DNA of 64,000 nucleotides from Peptococcaceae bacterium BRH_c4b (GTDB taxonomy: Bacteria; Bacillota; Desulfotomaculia; Desulfotomaculales; Desulfocucumaceae), in the NCBI GenBank assembly GCA_000961595.1, contig LADO01000042.1, forward strand, positions 1 through 64,000, given 5' to 3'. Shown piece by piece: positions 10,259-63,346 of the stretch; position 1 is the stretch's first letter, and every line of letters starts with the position of its first letter. The notes beneath the pieces are model-generated. The model saw only the letters and a list, made by a program, of their open reading frames with translations. It searched no databases and was not told the DNA's origin. Both the position numbers and the translations under genes were made by a program.

Positions 10259-11359
10259 ATGTGTTTAAACCTGATTGAAGGTGAAAAAAAAGCCTTTATG
10301 AACGGTAATGAGGTGATAGCCTGGGCAGCGATAGCTGCCCAGGCTGACATAATGTACGGCTATCCGATGACACCTCAAAATGAAATAATGCATTACTGGA
10401 CCAGACTGGCTTCAAAGGCTGGAAAAAGATTTTTGCAAACCGAGGACGAATTATCAGCCGGATTTACCACAATCGGTGGTGTGCTGGCGGGGAAAAGAGC
10501 TTTTACAAGTACAGCCGGGCCGGGGAATACCCTGATGCAGGAGCCTGTTTCAATGGCTGAAATGATGCGCCTGCCTATGGTGATCGTGATGCAACAGCGA
10601 GGAGGGCCGTCAACAGCCACTGCTAATTACTCCCAGCAGGAGTTGAATCTAACATGTTATGGCGGCAAAGGCGAGGGCTTGAGAATAGTCTATTCCACGG
10701 CTACGCACCAGGATTTGTTTGATTATACTATTAAAGCCTTTAACACAGCCTGGAAATACCGCTTTCCTACCTTTGTTCTGGGAGACGGTTATCAGGTTAA
10801 TATGAGAGAATCCTTTGTAATGTATGATCCGCAGGCCAGGGGAATTGATACGGTTCCCACTGAGCAAATTTTAGGTAAGCAAGGAGTGCCGGGGGCTGAC
10901 CGTGCTCCAGTACATCTAAGAAATGCTTATAATACAGAGGAAGAACTCTATAATGTTATTATGGCAAACGCAGAAGAATTTGATAAAATTGCACATGAAA
11001 TAACCGAATATGATGAGCAGTATATTGAAGATGCGGAAATCATTATAGTTGCTCATGGTGTCGTTAGCAGGACTGCTCTGGAAGCAGTCCTTGAATTGCG
11101 TAGTAAAGGACATAAGGTAGGGTATTTCCGTCCCATCACACTACGCCCTTTTCCTTCAAAACAGCTATATAACAGGGCTATAAAGGCTAAAACGCTTCTG
11201 GTGGTGGAATCTGCACTGGGACAGCTGGCAAGAACTGTTAAGGATGCCATATACGGGTGTAATACTTCGATAGAAACAATAGCTAAGCCTGGCATGGGCA
11301 TAATCTCCGAGGAAATTATTGAGAAGGTCGACATAATCATTAAAGGGGGATTAGCTTGA
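10259..11359 (+). CDS. korA: 2-oxoacid:ferredoxin oxidoreductase, alpha subunit
   Basis: This 366-residue protein is the pyrimidine-binding (alpha) subunit of a 2-oxoacid:ferredoxin oxidoreductase. Features include YGYPMTPQNEIMH near the N-terminus, TEDELSAG and the STAGPGN segment of the Kor/Vor alpha family. There is no fused gamma domain. The start is ATG at 10259 with CAGGAG 8 bp upstream. It overlaps korB by translational coupling, and korD follows. The complex oxidatively decarboxylates a 2-oxoacid to acyl-CoA with ferredoxin reduction, or runs in reverse. Whether the substrate is 2-oxoglutarate, a branched-chain 2-oxoacid or another oxoacid cannot be read here. No gamma subunit is visible. 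Confidence 0.9.
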   Translation: MCLNLIEGEKKAFMNGNEVIAWAAIAAQADIMYGYPMTPQNEIMHYWTRLASKAGKRFLQTEDELSAGFTTIGGVLAGKRAFTSTAGPGNTLMQEPVSMAEMMRLPMVIVMQQRGGPSTATANYSQQELNLTCYGGKGEGLRIVYSTATHQDLFDYTIKAFNTAWKYRFPTFVLGDGYQVNMRESFVMYDPQARGIDTVPTEQILGKQGVPGADRAPVHLRNAYNTEEELYNVIMANAEEFDKIAHEITEYDEQYIEDAEIIIVAHGVVSRTALEAVLELRSKGHKVGYFRPITLRPFPSKQLYNRAIKAKTLLVVESALGQLARTVKDAIYGCNTSIETIAKPGMGIISEEIIEKVDIIIKGGLA

Positions 11360-12174
11360 TGATGGTGAAACCCTTAATGCCAAAATGCTGGCGTAAGGAA
11401 AGCAAGCCGCATAAATTTTGCCCGGGTTGCGGTCATGGGCTGGCCCTCAAGGCATTGGGGATGGCTATTGATGAATTGGGTATTCAGGACAAGGTAGTAT
11501 TTGGCTGTGATATGGGCTGTTCATTAAAGGCCTGGGATTTTTTTAACGTTGATATTGTACAGACTCATCACGGTCGTACAACTCCTGTAATAACCGGGCT
11601 GAAACGAGCAAATCCTGAATTGATTGGCATAGCTTATATGGGTGATGGCGGGGGATATGCCATTGGTTTTCAACATCTGATGAATTCAGCAATAAGAAAT
11701 GAAAAGATAGTAGCCATTATTATCAATAACACTAACTATGGTATGACGGGAGGTCAACTGGCGCCAGGCACACTGCCAGGCCAGGAAACCGAAACAAGTC
11801 CTTATAAGAGGAAAGGGGACACACCTCTATTTGGTGCCAACTTTGGGGCCGAGGAATGTCCCCAATTATGGGACATAAATGAAACAGGTTATCCCATCCA
11901 GGGTCCGGAAATGGTGACTGCTATTGCTAAGCAAGGAGCGTATGCGGCCAGGGGGACTGTTGCCAATGTTCGTCAGTTGAAGGACTTTATTAAGAAGGCT
12001 TTACGAAACCAGATGGACGGCAATGGATTTTCTTTTGTGGAGGTACTGTCCACTTGTCCTACAAACTGGCGTACCGATGCAAAAGCTACCTTAAAGTACC
12101 TTGAGGAAGATATGACCAAATATTTCAAGGTACGGGAATTTAAAATACTTGCATCAGAGGGTGGACAACAATAA
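11359..12174 (+). CDS. korB: 2-oxoacid:ferredoxin oxidoreductase, beta subunit, with an in-frame repeat-derived insert
   Basis: This 271-residue ThDP-binding beta subunit has CPGCGHG, the GDGGGYAIG...NNTNYGMTGGQ ThDP motif and APGTLPGQ. The start is ATG 11359, overlapping the korA stop, with AAAGGGGGA 8 bp upstream. In family members known to me, the SPYGR-type motif runs straight into a D-x-x-x-TGYPI motif. Here about 20 extra residues (152-171, nt 11812-11871) intervene. That DNA matches an intergenic hairpin repeat found at 35575 (GGGGACACACCTCT...AGGAATGTCCCC). The rest of the protein is intact and in frame, so the enzyme may tolerate the insert as a surface loop. Confidence 0.9.
   Translation: MMVKPLMPKCWRKESKPHKFCPGCGHGLALKALGMAIDELGIQDKVVFGCDMGCSLKAWDFFNVDIVQTHHGRTTPVITGLKRANPELIGIAYMGDGGGYAIGFQHLMNSAIRNEKIVAIIINNTNYGMTGGQLAPGTLPGQETETSPYKRKGDTPLFGANFGAEECPQLWDINETGYPIQGPEMVTAIAKQGAYAARGTVANVRQLKDFIKKALRNQMDGNGFSFVEVLSTCPTNWRTDAKATLKYLEEDMTKYFKVREFKILASEGGQQ
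11812..11871 (+). repeat. GGGGAC...GTCCCC hairpin repeat inside korB
   Basis: The 60 nt encode residues 152-171 of KorB. Fourteen bases at the left end (GGGGACACACCTCT) and fourteen at the right (AGGAATGTCCCCAA) are identical to the repeat at 35575-35628. The interior is partly similar (TTTGGNGCC). The length is a multiple of three, so the reading frame is kept. A shorter relative is at 63317-63346. Confidence 0.8.
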
Positions 12175-12282: not shown

Positions 12283-12537
12283 GTGGACTATAGCAGTATC
12301 AGGTTTGAGAGCGGGAAAGCAGCAATATACATTTTCCCCGGACTTTGTAAAGGCTGCGGGTTATGTATTGAGAAATGTCCTGTCAATAATCTTGGATGGT
12401 CCAAAGTGTTAGGAGTTTTCGGTACACCGTCCGTTGAGCCCGGCCATAATGAAAAGGGATGTAGAGCATGTACCTTATGTGAAAATATCTGCCCAGACTG
12501 TGCTATTTATATTGAAAAGGTTAAATTGAAAAACTGA
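12283..12537 (+). CDS. korD: 2x[4Fe-4S] ferredoxin-type delta subunit of the oxidoreductase
   Basis: This 84-residue protein has two cysteine sets: CKGCGLC...CP in the N-terminal half and CRACTLC...CP in the C-terminal half. It is typical of the Kor/Por delta subunit that passes electrons from the ThDP site to free ferredoxin. The GTG start at 12283 is preceded by GGGAGG at a longish 12 bp, and no upstream in-frame start exists. A 108-bp gap separates it from korB. The order alpha-beta-delta differs from the more usual delta-alpha-beta-gamma. Confidence 0.85.
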   Translation: MDYSSIRFESGKAAIYIFPGLCKGCGLCIEKCPVNNLGWSKVLGVFGTPSVEPGHNEKGCRACTLCENICPDCAIYIEKVKLKN

Positions 12538-33783: not shown

Positions 33784-35508
33784 GTGCATAATATGGAAAT
33801 TACCTGGTCCCTTTACGAGTTGGCGGATTTGCTGGAAATCCGGGGGGGAGATTTTTTTAAACTGCGGGCCTATCGCAATGCCGCCAGGACCGTGGCCGGA
33901 CTGCCGGAGCCCGTGGAGATGCTGTACAGGGAAAAAAGGCTTACTGCGGTACCCGGTATAGGGAAAAACATTCAGGCTAAGATAGTAGAACTGTTGACCA
34001 CGGGTAAACTGGAAAAACTGGAAAAGTTGCGCCGGGAAATCCCCCGGGGGCTGCTGGAAATCATGGCCCTGCCGGGAGTGGGGGCCAAGCGTGCCAGATT
34101 TTTATACGAACAGCTTGGTGCCTCCAGCCTGGACGAATTGCAGCAGGCTGCCAGGGACCACCGGGTCAGGACGCTGCCGGGGCTGGGCGCCAAAACTGAA
34201 CTTGAATTAATAAGGAATATTGATATTCTGCGCAAGCGCGGCGGTATTTTTTTGCTGGGTCTGGCCCGGCAACTGGCGGCGGAATTGCTTGAGTTTATAA
34301 AAATATTGCCCGGGGTTGGCCGGGCGGAAGTTACGGGCAGTGTGCGCCGCTGGCGGGAGACGGTGAGAGACCTTAACATACTGGTTTCCTCCGGGGACCC
34401 CGGCCAGGTGCTGGAGGCCATGGCCGCACACCCCAGGGCCAGGGAAATTATACAACGGCAGCAGGATATAGTTAAAGTGATGACATGGTGGGGTATCCCG
34501 GTGGAAATAGCGGCGGTTAGTCCGGAGAGATTCACCTTTACCTGGTTCTGGCACACCGGCAGCAAAAAACACCTGGAGGAACTGCAGGAATTGGCGCAGG
34601 CCAGGGGAATGGAACTGGGATCGGAAGGACTCTTCAAGGATTCAGGACGGATGGAAATTAATATCAAATCCGAGGAGGATATTTATACCCTGCTCGGCCT
34701 GCAGTACGTTCCTCCCGAAATGCGGGAGGGCAGGGGCGAGGTGGCGCTGGCCTCCCGCCATGAGCTGCCCGAACTGCTGGATACCGGTATGATCAAGGGA
34801 GATTTGCACGTACACAGCAACTGGAGTGACGGGGGCGGCAGCATAGAGGAATTAGCGGCCCGGGCCAGGGAAAAGGGCTACAGTTACCTGGCCATAACAG
34901 ACCACTCCCAGTCACTGAAAATTGCCCGGGGGCTTACCCCGGAACGTCTTAGGGAGCAGTACGACTTAATCGACCGGATCAACGAAAAAAACAAGGATTT
35001 TACCATATTAAAGGGAATTGAAGTGGATATCCTGGCCCAGGGAGGGCTCGACCTGCAGGACGAAGTACTGGAAACCGCCGATGTAGTGGTGGCCTCTGTG
35101 CACAGTGGTTTCAAGCAGGACGCTGAAACCATTACCTCCAGGATACTGCAGGCGGTGGAAAACCGGCATGTGGATATTATAGGCCACCTGACCGGAAGGA
35201 TGATCGGCCAGCGGGAGGGCTACGCCGTTGATGTGCAAAGGGTGCTGGAGGCCGCAGCCAGGCACGGCAAAATAATGGAAATAAACTCTTCACCGGACCG
35301 GCTGGACTTAAACGATGAAAATGTAAGTCTGGCCAGGGAATACGGAGTCAGCATAGCCATCAACACCGATGCCCATGATTTGAAGCGTATGGATGAACTG
35401 GAGTATGGGGTGGCCACGGCCCGCCGGGGCTGGCTTGGGCCCGGGGATGTGGTTAATACCCTGGATCTACCGGATTTATTAGAGATATTGCGCAATAAAT
35501 ATAAGTGA
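33784..35508 (+). CDS. polX: PolX-type protein with a degenerate polymerase site and an intact PHP domain
   Basis: This 574-residue protein has the order HhH (about 8-150), Pol-beta nucleotidyltransferase (about 155-315) and PHP phosphoesterase (about 338-574). The PHP metal motifs are intact: DLHVHSNWSDG, ITDHS, VASVHSG, IIGHLTG and NTDAHD. In the polymerase domain the metal-binding triad is altered. GDxD becomes RDLN (Asp196, Asn198), and the third Asp is Glu241 in PVEIAAV. It may therefore act mainly as a 3'-5' exonuclease or AP endonuclease. The start is taken at GTG 33784, 8 bp after TGGAG. The stop codon lies in a dispersed repeat, so the last residue is repeat-encoded. Confidence 0.9.
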   Translation: MHNMEITWSLYELADLLEIRGGDFFKLRAYRNAARTVAGLPEPVEMLYREKRLTAVPGIGKNIQAKIVELLTTGKLEKLEKLRREIPRGLLEIMALPGVGAKRARFLYEQLGASSLDELQQAARDHRVRTLPGLGAKTELELIRNIDILRKRGGIFLLGLARQLAAELLEFIKILPGVGRAEVTGSVRRWRETVRDLNILVSSGDPGQVLEAMAAHPRAREIIQRQQDIVKVMTWWGIPVEIAAVSPERFTFTWFWHTGSKKHLEELQELAQARGMELGSEGLFKDSGRMEINIKSEEDIYTLLGLQYVPPEMREGRGEVALASRHELPELLDTGMIKGDLHVHSNWSDGGGSIEELAARAREKGYSYLAITDHSQSLKIARGLTPERLREQYDLIDRINEKNKDFTILKGIEVDILAQGGLDLQDEVLETADVVVASVHSGFKQDAETITSRILQAVENRHVDIIGHLTGRMIGQREGYAVDVQRVLEAAARHGKIMEINSSPDRLDLNDENVSLAREYGVSIAINTDAHDLKRMDELEYGVATARRGWLGPGDVVNTLDLPDLLEILRNKYK

Positions 35509-35690
35509 GCCTTGGGTTCGGAAGGGGTTATTCCCCTACCGAACCCTTAGAGCGAACATAAAGGTATGGGGACACACCTCTCTTTGGAGCCTGGATCTAG
35601 GGTCAGAGGAATGTCCCCAACTAAGAGCTTTACAGCCTGTTGATCCCCGACCTTCGAGGACGGGGTCTTACAGGCTGTTAGCGAGATAAA
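35498..35690 (+). repeat. About 190-bp dispersed element, copy 2 (carries a GGGGAC hairpin)
   Basis: It shares both ends with 6755-6937. The central part differs and contains the GGGGACACACCTCT...AGAGGAATGTCCCC hairpin at 35575-35628, the same sequence that is found inside korB. The left end overlaps the polX stop codon, as copy 1 abuts the stop of the dehydrogenase gene. This hints at an insertion preference near gene 3' ends. Confidence 0.85.
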
Positions 35691-35703
35691 CAGGTGAGGA
35701 ATT

Positions 35704-55871: not shown

Positions 55872-57044
55872 GTGCAAACTGCGGATCGTATTGCCGGAAT
55901 TGGTTCGGCAATATTTAATGAGATGGAGATTTTAAAAAGGAAGGTAGAGGAGCGGGGCGTGACAGTGATTAACCTGGGTGTGGGTACGCCGGACCGCCCC
56001 CCTGCACCGCACATAATCCAGGCCATGCACCGGGCTCTTGACAATCCCAACAATTACCGTTATCCCCTGGAGGGCATGCCGGAGTTGTACAGGGCGTTAA
56101 CTGACTGGTATAAAAGAAGGTTTGGGGTGGTTCTGGACTCCGCCAGCGAGGTACTGGTGCTGATGGGCTCCCAGGATGGGCTGGCCCACCTGGCCATGGC
56201 CTATATCAACCCTGGGGATATTGCCCTTGTTCCGGATCCTGGCTACCCTATTTATGCCTGCGGCATCAAACTTGCTGGCGGAGAGGTGTATCCCCTGCCG
56301 CTGCTGGCCAAGAACGACTTTCTGCCCGATTTTGATGCCATACCGGAGGGTATAGCCCGTAGGGCCAAACTGATCTGGCTCAACTACCCCAACAATCCCG
56401 TGGCGGCAAATGCCAATCGGGAATTTTTTGAAAAAGCTGCGGCTTTTGGTAAAAAATACGGTATTCTTGTGTGCCACGATGTGGCCTATTCCGAACTGGC
56501 TTATGACGGCTTCAAGCCGGTGAGTTTCCTGGAGGCGCCCGGGGCCAGGGAGGTTGGTATAGAGTTTTATTCACTGTCCAAGACCTACAATATGGCGGGT
56601 TGCAGAATTGGTTTTGCAGTGGGCAACAGCGCTGTGCTGGAGGCGTTGGGGAGGGTTAAATCCAACATAGATTACGGTGTTTTCAGGGTTGTGCAGGAGG
56701 CCGGCATAGCCGCTCTGGAAGGTCCCCAGGATTGTGTAGAGGAAAACGCCAGGGTATACCAGCGCAGGAGGGACGTGCTGGTGGACGGTCTGGCCGGACT
56801 GGGCTGGCAAATGCCCAAACCCCGGGCATCAATGTTTGTATGGGCCCCGCTGCCTCCGGGCTATGTCTCCTCCTGGGAATTCTGCCTGGAACTCCTGGCT
56901 AAGGCCGGGGTTATAGTCATTCCCGGGGTGGCTTTCGGAGAGAGTGGTGAGGGCTATGTCAGGATCGCTATGGTGCAGGAGGAAGAGGTGCTGGTTGAGG
57001 CGGTGCGGCGCATAGGGGAATCCTTCAGTTTTGGAAGCAGTTAA
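55872..57044 (+). CDS. PLP-dependent aminotransferase, class I/II (LL-DAP aminotransferase-like)
   Basis: This 390-residue fold-type I aminotransferase has the PLP-Lys in YSLSKTYNMAGCR, WLNYPNNPVAA, HDVAYSEL and a C-terminal Arg in VRIAM. The overall look is close to LL-diaminopimelate/alanine-type aminotransferases of Firmicutes. Substrate specificity cannot be fixed from motifs. The GTG start at 55872 follows GGGGGAG. Confidence 0.88.
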   Translation: MQTADRIAGIGSAIFNEMEILKRKVEERGVTVINLGVGTPDRPPAPHIIQAMHRALDNPNNYRYPLEGMPELYRALTDWYKRRFGVVLDSASEVLVLMGSQDGLAHLAMAYINPGDIALVPDPGYPIYACGIKLAGGEVYPLPLLAKNDFLPDFDAIPEGIARRAKLIWLNYPNNPVAANANREFFEKAAAFGKKYGILVCHDVAYSELAYDGFKPVSFLEAPGAREVGIEFYSLSKTYNMAGCRIGFAVGNSAVLEALGRVKSNIDYGVFRVVQEAGIAALEGPQDCVEENARVYQRRRDVLVDGLAGLGWQMPKPRASMFVWAPLPPGYVSSWEFCLELLAKAGVIVIPGVAFGESGEGYVRIAMVQEEEVLVEAVRRIGESFSFGSS

Positions 57045-63316: not shown

Positions 63317-63346
63317 GGGGACCCACTTTCACGAAGGAATGTCCCC
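63317..63346 (+). repeat. GGGGACCCACTTTC...AATGTCCCC hairpin repeat
   Basis: GGGGAC and GTCCCC arms. The right end AAGGAATGTCCCCAA matches the korB insert and 35575 elements. It lies between cbiA and cobD. Confidence 0.85.

Follow-up and report, generated by a model that had tools for sequence, protein, structure and literature searches.

In-frame insertion of a probably mobile palindromic repeat in korB of Peptococcaceae bacterium BRH_c4b

Within korB of Peptococcaceae bacterium BRH_c4b, which encodes the beta subunit of a 2-oxoacid:ferredoxin oxidoreductase (OFOR), lies a segment of 60 bp that resembles a hairpin found between genes elsewhere in the same 64,000-nucleotide stretch of DNA, referred to here as the window. 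A sequence-only reading of the window had proposed that a mobile hairpin was captured in frame by the gene, or that the hairpin was itself born from coding DNA, and the locus thus raises the question of which sequence gave rise to which. The relevant features are as follows.

10259–11359, + strand: korA, alpha subunit; intact open reading frame upstream of korB, with a 4-bp overlap with korB.
11356–12174, + strand: korB, 2-oxoacid:ferredoxin oxidoreductase beta subunit; intact open reading frame of 272 codons with a 20-residue insert, assigned by PF02775, NCBIfam KorB models and the OFOR beta fold.
11812–11871, + strand: in-frame insertion relative to KorB homologues (KGDTPLFGANFGAEECPQLW); 60 bp, 20 residues, delimited by an alignment of 25 KorB sequences and by tblastn.
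11815–11863, + strand: core of the palindromic element in korB; 49 bp, with two single-base gaps relative to the nearest 51-bp copy.
12283–12537, + strand: ferredoxin-like delta subunit (KorD type); intact.

The window protein carries the TPP-binding domain PF02775 expected of an OFOR beta subunit, and its predicted model matches chain C of the Helicobacter pylori OorDABC complex (8ys5_C) with a Z score of 20.7 and 6n2n_B with a Z score of 19.8. A KorB match was present in 59 of the 60 related genomes searched; in tblastn comparisons, alignment with the proteins of close relatives runs to residue 152 or 153 and restarts at about 173–174, or else these proteins are shorter by the same stretch, and the alignment of 25 KorB sequences shows one clean 20-column gap at this site in all the others. 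A second korB in the same genome, on contig C42 and 65.5% identical to the window gene, can be aligned along nearly all of its length and likewise falls short by the amount of the insert. In comparison with the relatives' KorB sequences aligned across the site, the loop was seen in the source genome only, as had been anticipated; we also sought the same loop across several genera, which would have spoken against capture, and did not find it. The inserted residues are 153–172 when counted from the TTG start, and the originally reported numbering of 152–171 holds if counting begins at the next codon, an ATG. With exactly 60 bp, the insert keeps the reading frame, in agreement with the proposal that its length is a multiple of three.

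Both ends of the insert match the intergenic hairpin as exact 14-mers: GGGGACACACCTCT at 11815–11828 is repeated at 35568–35581, and AGGAATGTCCCCAA at 11852–11865 is repeated at 35607–35620. The hairpin itself, originally placed at 35575–35628, does exist, with boundaries that had to be moved by a few bases. Three further features of the window belong here.

35568–35618, + strand: intergenic copy of the element; 51 bp, found by both the end pattern and the covariance model.
35505–35695, + strand: larger intergenic three-hairpin repeat hosting the copy at 35568; its left 63 bp have 40 genome matches, some without the element.
63317–63346, + strand: short degenerate intergenic hairpin with the common end motif (GGGGACCCACTTTCACGAAGGAATGTCCCC), identified by sequence, with its right half matched.

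In most copies, the element is a 51-bp imperfect palindrome with the ends GGGGACACACCT and AGGAATGTCCCC, of which there are about 110 copies in the genome. Searching the 3.62-Mb genome for this pair of ends gave 98 matches (50 forward and 48 reverse), compared with none for a reversed-pattern control, and a covariance model built from 32 copies gave 111 matches at E<=0.01, so that the suggested genome search for further copies was amply rewarded. In the consensus fold, a stem of 12 pairs, interrupted on each side by an internal loop of 2 nt, closes a terminal loop of about 24 nt, and a second class of copies combines the common ends with a different loop (GCTGAAG...GGGGACAGG). On the + strand, none of 200 shuffles folds as well as the korB or the 35568 copy (z scores of -3.1 and -4.7, respectively). 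Copies occur in tandem on contig C25 with a period of 62–64 bp, corresponding to the core plus 11 nt, and are also nested in each other. The element is present in 16 of 60 relatives, with up to 71 copies, and, as a lower bound, in many named genomes, including those of Desulfocucumis, Pelotomaculum, Desulfotruncus, Sedimentibacter and Dethiobacter.

Several observations on the window and the genome accompany this survey. The 30-bp hairpin at 63317–63346 carries the element's right end directly upstream of the next open frame and is not among the covariance-model matches. A match at 56282–56295, which lies in coding sequence, was set aside, since it appears coincidental and has no covariance-model match. 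The three-hairpin repeat at 35505–35695 has an RNA folding z score of -7.4; no Rfam family reached threshold at this repeat or at the element, the window giving only a tRNA and a cobalamin riboswitch (RF00174, 58149–58369). On contig C40 of the same genome, a compact 31-bp copy (locus L132) lies at the apparent 5' end of a PEP-synthase-like gene, perhaps in the mRNA leader.

Evidence of insertion comes from a pair of filled and empty sites. Many intergenic copies sit inside the larger hairpin repeat of the type seen at 35505–35695, and about half of the 40 matches to the left 63 bp of that repeat end before the junction with the small element. At locus L125, the larger repeat occurs without the element and reads GAGCGAAC-TTAGTTC-GAGC, while the filled locus L078 reads GAGCGAAC-ATTAAGGTAT-[51 bp]-AACTAAAC-GAGC; the net difference is 62 bp, gained in the loop of a small palindrome. 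Since the element is multicopy and occurs in many other Clostridia-like genomes, we conclude that it entered korB and was not born there. The closest copy to that in korB (locus L120) is 90% identical over 61 nt with two 1-nt gaps, and these two single-base differences would account for a korB insert of 60 bp that keeps the reading frame, which an insert of the standard 62 bp would disrupt.

Taken with its confinement to one KorB, its mostly intergenic distribution and its occurrence in many genera, this bears out the proposal of in-frame capture, and we consider insertion of a mobile palindrome into korB to be very probable. We envisage a non-autonomous REPIN-like repeat, consisting of the inverted arms GGGGACACACCT and GGGGACATTCCT with a variable loop between them, that would have been inserted into korB as a unit of usually about 62 bp, with two single-base losses, before or after insertion, giving the frame-preserving 60 bp. 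The insert would have survived because its length is a multiple of three, it has no stop in frame and it sits in a long beta-subunit loop. The KorB protein would then be made with the 20-residue loop, as a peptide that is probably tolerated and not selected for.

The element is close to the REPIN/REP and RAYT systems (PMC3116915, PMC2817692), with which it has in common a hairpin made of two inverted arms, about 100 mostly extragenic copies, tandem and nested clusters, and a GGGGAC head. In these genomes, several RAYT genes are accompanied by repeats with the same head. The element differs from those systems in that its arms flank none of the 28 RAYT-like ORFs in the loci examined (GGGGACACACC is absent within 260 bp), the repeats beside these ORFs being GGGGACGGTTCT, GGGGACAGGTACC, GGGGACGTTTCG, GGGGACGAATGG and the like; an element-specific RAYT gene was looked for in the source and related genomes examined and not found. 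RAYT-type genes at L035, L036, L320, L325, L330 and L332 have flanking repeats that combine the GGGGAC head with different continuations, and are possibly a set of related REP/RAYT pairs. Nesting and insertion into a palindrome loop would be in keeping with a single-strand HUH enzyme that acts in trans, and we regard it as an even chance that a HUH/Y1 transposase of the RAYT type mobilises the element by acting on its hairpins.

It is conceivable, if unlikely, that the window korB is turning into a pseudogene, the insert damaging the enzyme and the second, insert-free korB of the genome now carrying the function. Among 30 sequences, the window KorB does depart most often from conserved columns (15 times, the next highest being 12), and it has 14 nonsynonymous changes against 5 in its nearest homologue, that of relative G022 (a different family of the same order; 83% identity over aligned positions), from which a partial loss of function is possible; this nonsynonymous excess is, however, not significant (Fisher p 0.077). 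Against decay also stand the fully open frame, the intact adjoining korA and delta-subunit genes, and the 48 synonymous versus 14 nonsynonymous codon changes on the korB branch, which indicate purifying selection, although much of it, or the larger part, may predate the insertion. Relative to the nearest homologue, pN is 0.098 and pS 0.785, the latter at saturated synonymous sites. One further departure adjoins the insert: the SPYGR motif reads SPYKR in the window KorB, its glycine being present in 29 of 29 other sequences, and AGAGGAAA, upstream of the korB core, resembles the usual flank of the element, which suggests that the insertion may have replaced the glycine codon.

In the single-chain predicted model, the insert sits in a loop spanning residues 128–181, mostly with pLDDT under 50. 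By sequence, the insertion site follows a segment matching residue 143 of chain B of the Sulfolobus OFOR, in which loop 132b–152b belongs to a set of four described around the [4Fe-4S] cluster (PMC5020499), so that the insert would be placed in a loop near that cluster.

We also listed ORFs spanning a copy in the source genome, two relatives and named contigs, and compared them with homologues. Besides korB, four further gene families contain in-frame copies, and in all five the gene is conserved and has homologues without the insert. In a B12-binding radical SAM protein, the insert directly follows the CxxxCxxC motif and comprises about 72 residues in the source genome; the same site holds another, nested insert in relative G005 and a shortened remnant (GGAAAGGGAACACACC) in relative G001, and is empty in G022, G007, G034 and G015. 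The orthologues from the three genomes with element-derived sequence are 74–78% identical, and their inserted residues differ. Between them, the genes L145 and L146 have, at this one site, a composite of one of the loop classes in one genome and, in another, a nested composite built from the second class, both in frame. This is most simply read as a single old insertion with later nested turnover, ahead of the alternative of independent insertions in the three genomes. In G001, a radical SAM protein with an HMPTM zinc ribbon has a 42-residue insert that is absent from five homologues. Full-length homologues of hypF from G005, a locus identical to that of Peptococcaceae bacterium BICA1-7, stop aligning at about residues 632–641 and restart at about residues 671–681. 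Finally, a PEP-synthase-like gene contains the reversed element at one site in both G005 and a Desulfoscipio geothermicus MAG, whose proteins are 62% identical; the homologue in the source genome is empty.

The coding copies found are all in frame, in several reading frames and both orientations, and add from about 16 to about 72 residues. Apparent in-frame ORFs at XerC, AbrB-like and other loci were discounted, being either N-terminal extensions or spurious frames. Clear genes hold 3 of 108 copies in the source genome, where open frames of at least 150 codons make up 76% of the sequence examined; this rarity fits strong removal of gene-breaking insertions, although an insertion preference may also contribute.

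Could the korB loop have been kept because it usefully changes the enzyme, for instance by covering the iron-sulphur cluster or altering partner binding? The position of the site, by sequence, in a loop described around the [4Fe-4S] cluster would suit such co-option, as would the B12 radical SAM insert, which is in frame in two genomes and persists as a remnant in a third. Nevertheless, the residues at the B12 radical SAM site differ completely between genomes, suggesting no fixed function; no conserved peptide or frame was found across korB (KGDTPLFG), the radical SAM gene (GKGTHLSLEPG) and the PEP-synthase-like gene (GHSSD...EVCPL, reverse strand); and the openness of the element in all six frames, considered as a possible coding adaptation, shows no excess over shuffles. 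Selection for the korB loop thus appears distinctly improbable. Only slightly less doubtful is a broader proposal, that the hairpin repeatedly seeds new enzyme loops in this clade, which are remodelled in frame by nested insertion and deletion and some of which are selected for, making it a standing source of protein novelty; of the five families with inserts, three are iron-sulphur or radical enzymes in which the insert lies close to a cofactor motif.

Although now read as codons, both palindrome ends are retained exactly in the korB copy (11815–11863), and at the RNA level its stem continues to fold (z -3.8), with possible effects on korB translation or mRNA stability. Other systems are known to contain hairpin bypass elements, and the retained RNA hairpin might allow the insert to be skipped in translation or removed by RNA processing, giving a protein without the loop; we consider this very improbable, as the coding copies among the spanning ORFs all keep the frame and lack a stop, neither of which would be needed for bypass. 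That the element was born from korB and then spread, to which only their common sequence points, is scarcely credible given the roughly 110 copies in this genome and the hundreds found in other genera, the existence of two loop classes, the intergenic bias, the empty and filled pair, and a korB insert found in the source genome only.

Insertion of a mobile palindrome into genes has precedents. Rickettsia palindromic elements (RPEs) lie in frame within genes (Ogata 2000 and 2002; reviewed in PMC10969869) and resemble the present element as many-copy palindromes that in some cases add a peptide to the products of unrelated genes. Compared by description, they differ in phylum and in length (about 150 bp, against a core of 51 bp), and the present element occurs in several frames and both orientations and encodes no conserved peptide. 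Intragenic GTAG- and CGTC-tagged REPs add 20–30 residues, or 43–82 when derived from clusters (PMC3733652), and are similar in being REP-like palindromes that are mostly intergenic and sometimes in frame. The terminal GTAG tetranucleotide is nevertheless absent from the ends and flanks of all listed copies; and whereas CGTC repeats have a CGTC (or TGTC/CCTC) tag at the end of an 8–9 bp stem with a loop of 4–5 nt (PMC3733652), the TGTC of the element (end TGTCCCC) is part of the stem itself, which has 12 bp and closes a loop of about 24 nt. In the papers searched, mostly outside the subscription literature, GGGGACACACCT was not found, and none joins RAYT, REPIN and Firmicutes. On the tests made, the element works like intragenic REPs and RPEs but belongs to no named family.

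Coding palindromes were first described as a peculiarity of Rickettsia, and later for GTAG and CGTC REPs. Here, a repeat fitting neither of these REP classes does likewise in Desulfotomaculum-like Firmicutes, coding for additional peptide loops in otherwise intact genes, namely korB and at least four others in the source and related bacteria. With orthologous sites that are filled, remodelled, shrunken or empty, the tolerance, selection or purging of such inserts becomes directly testable.
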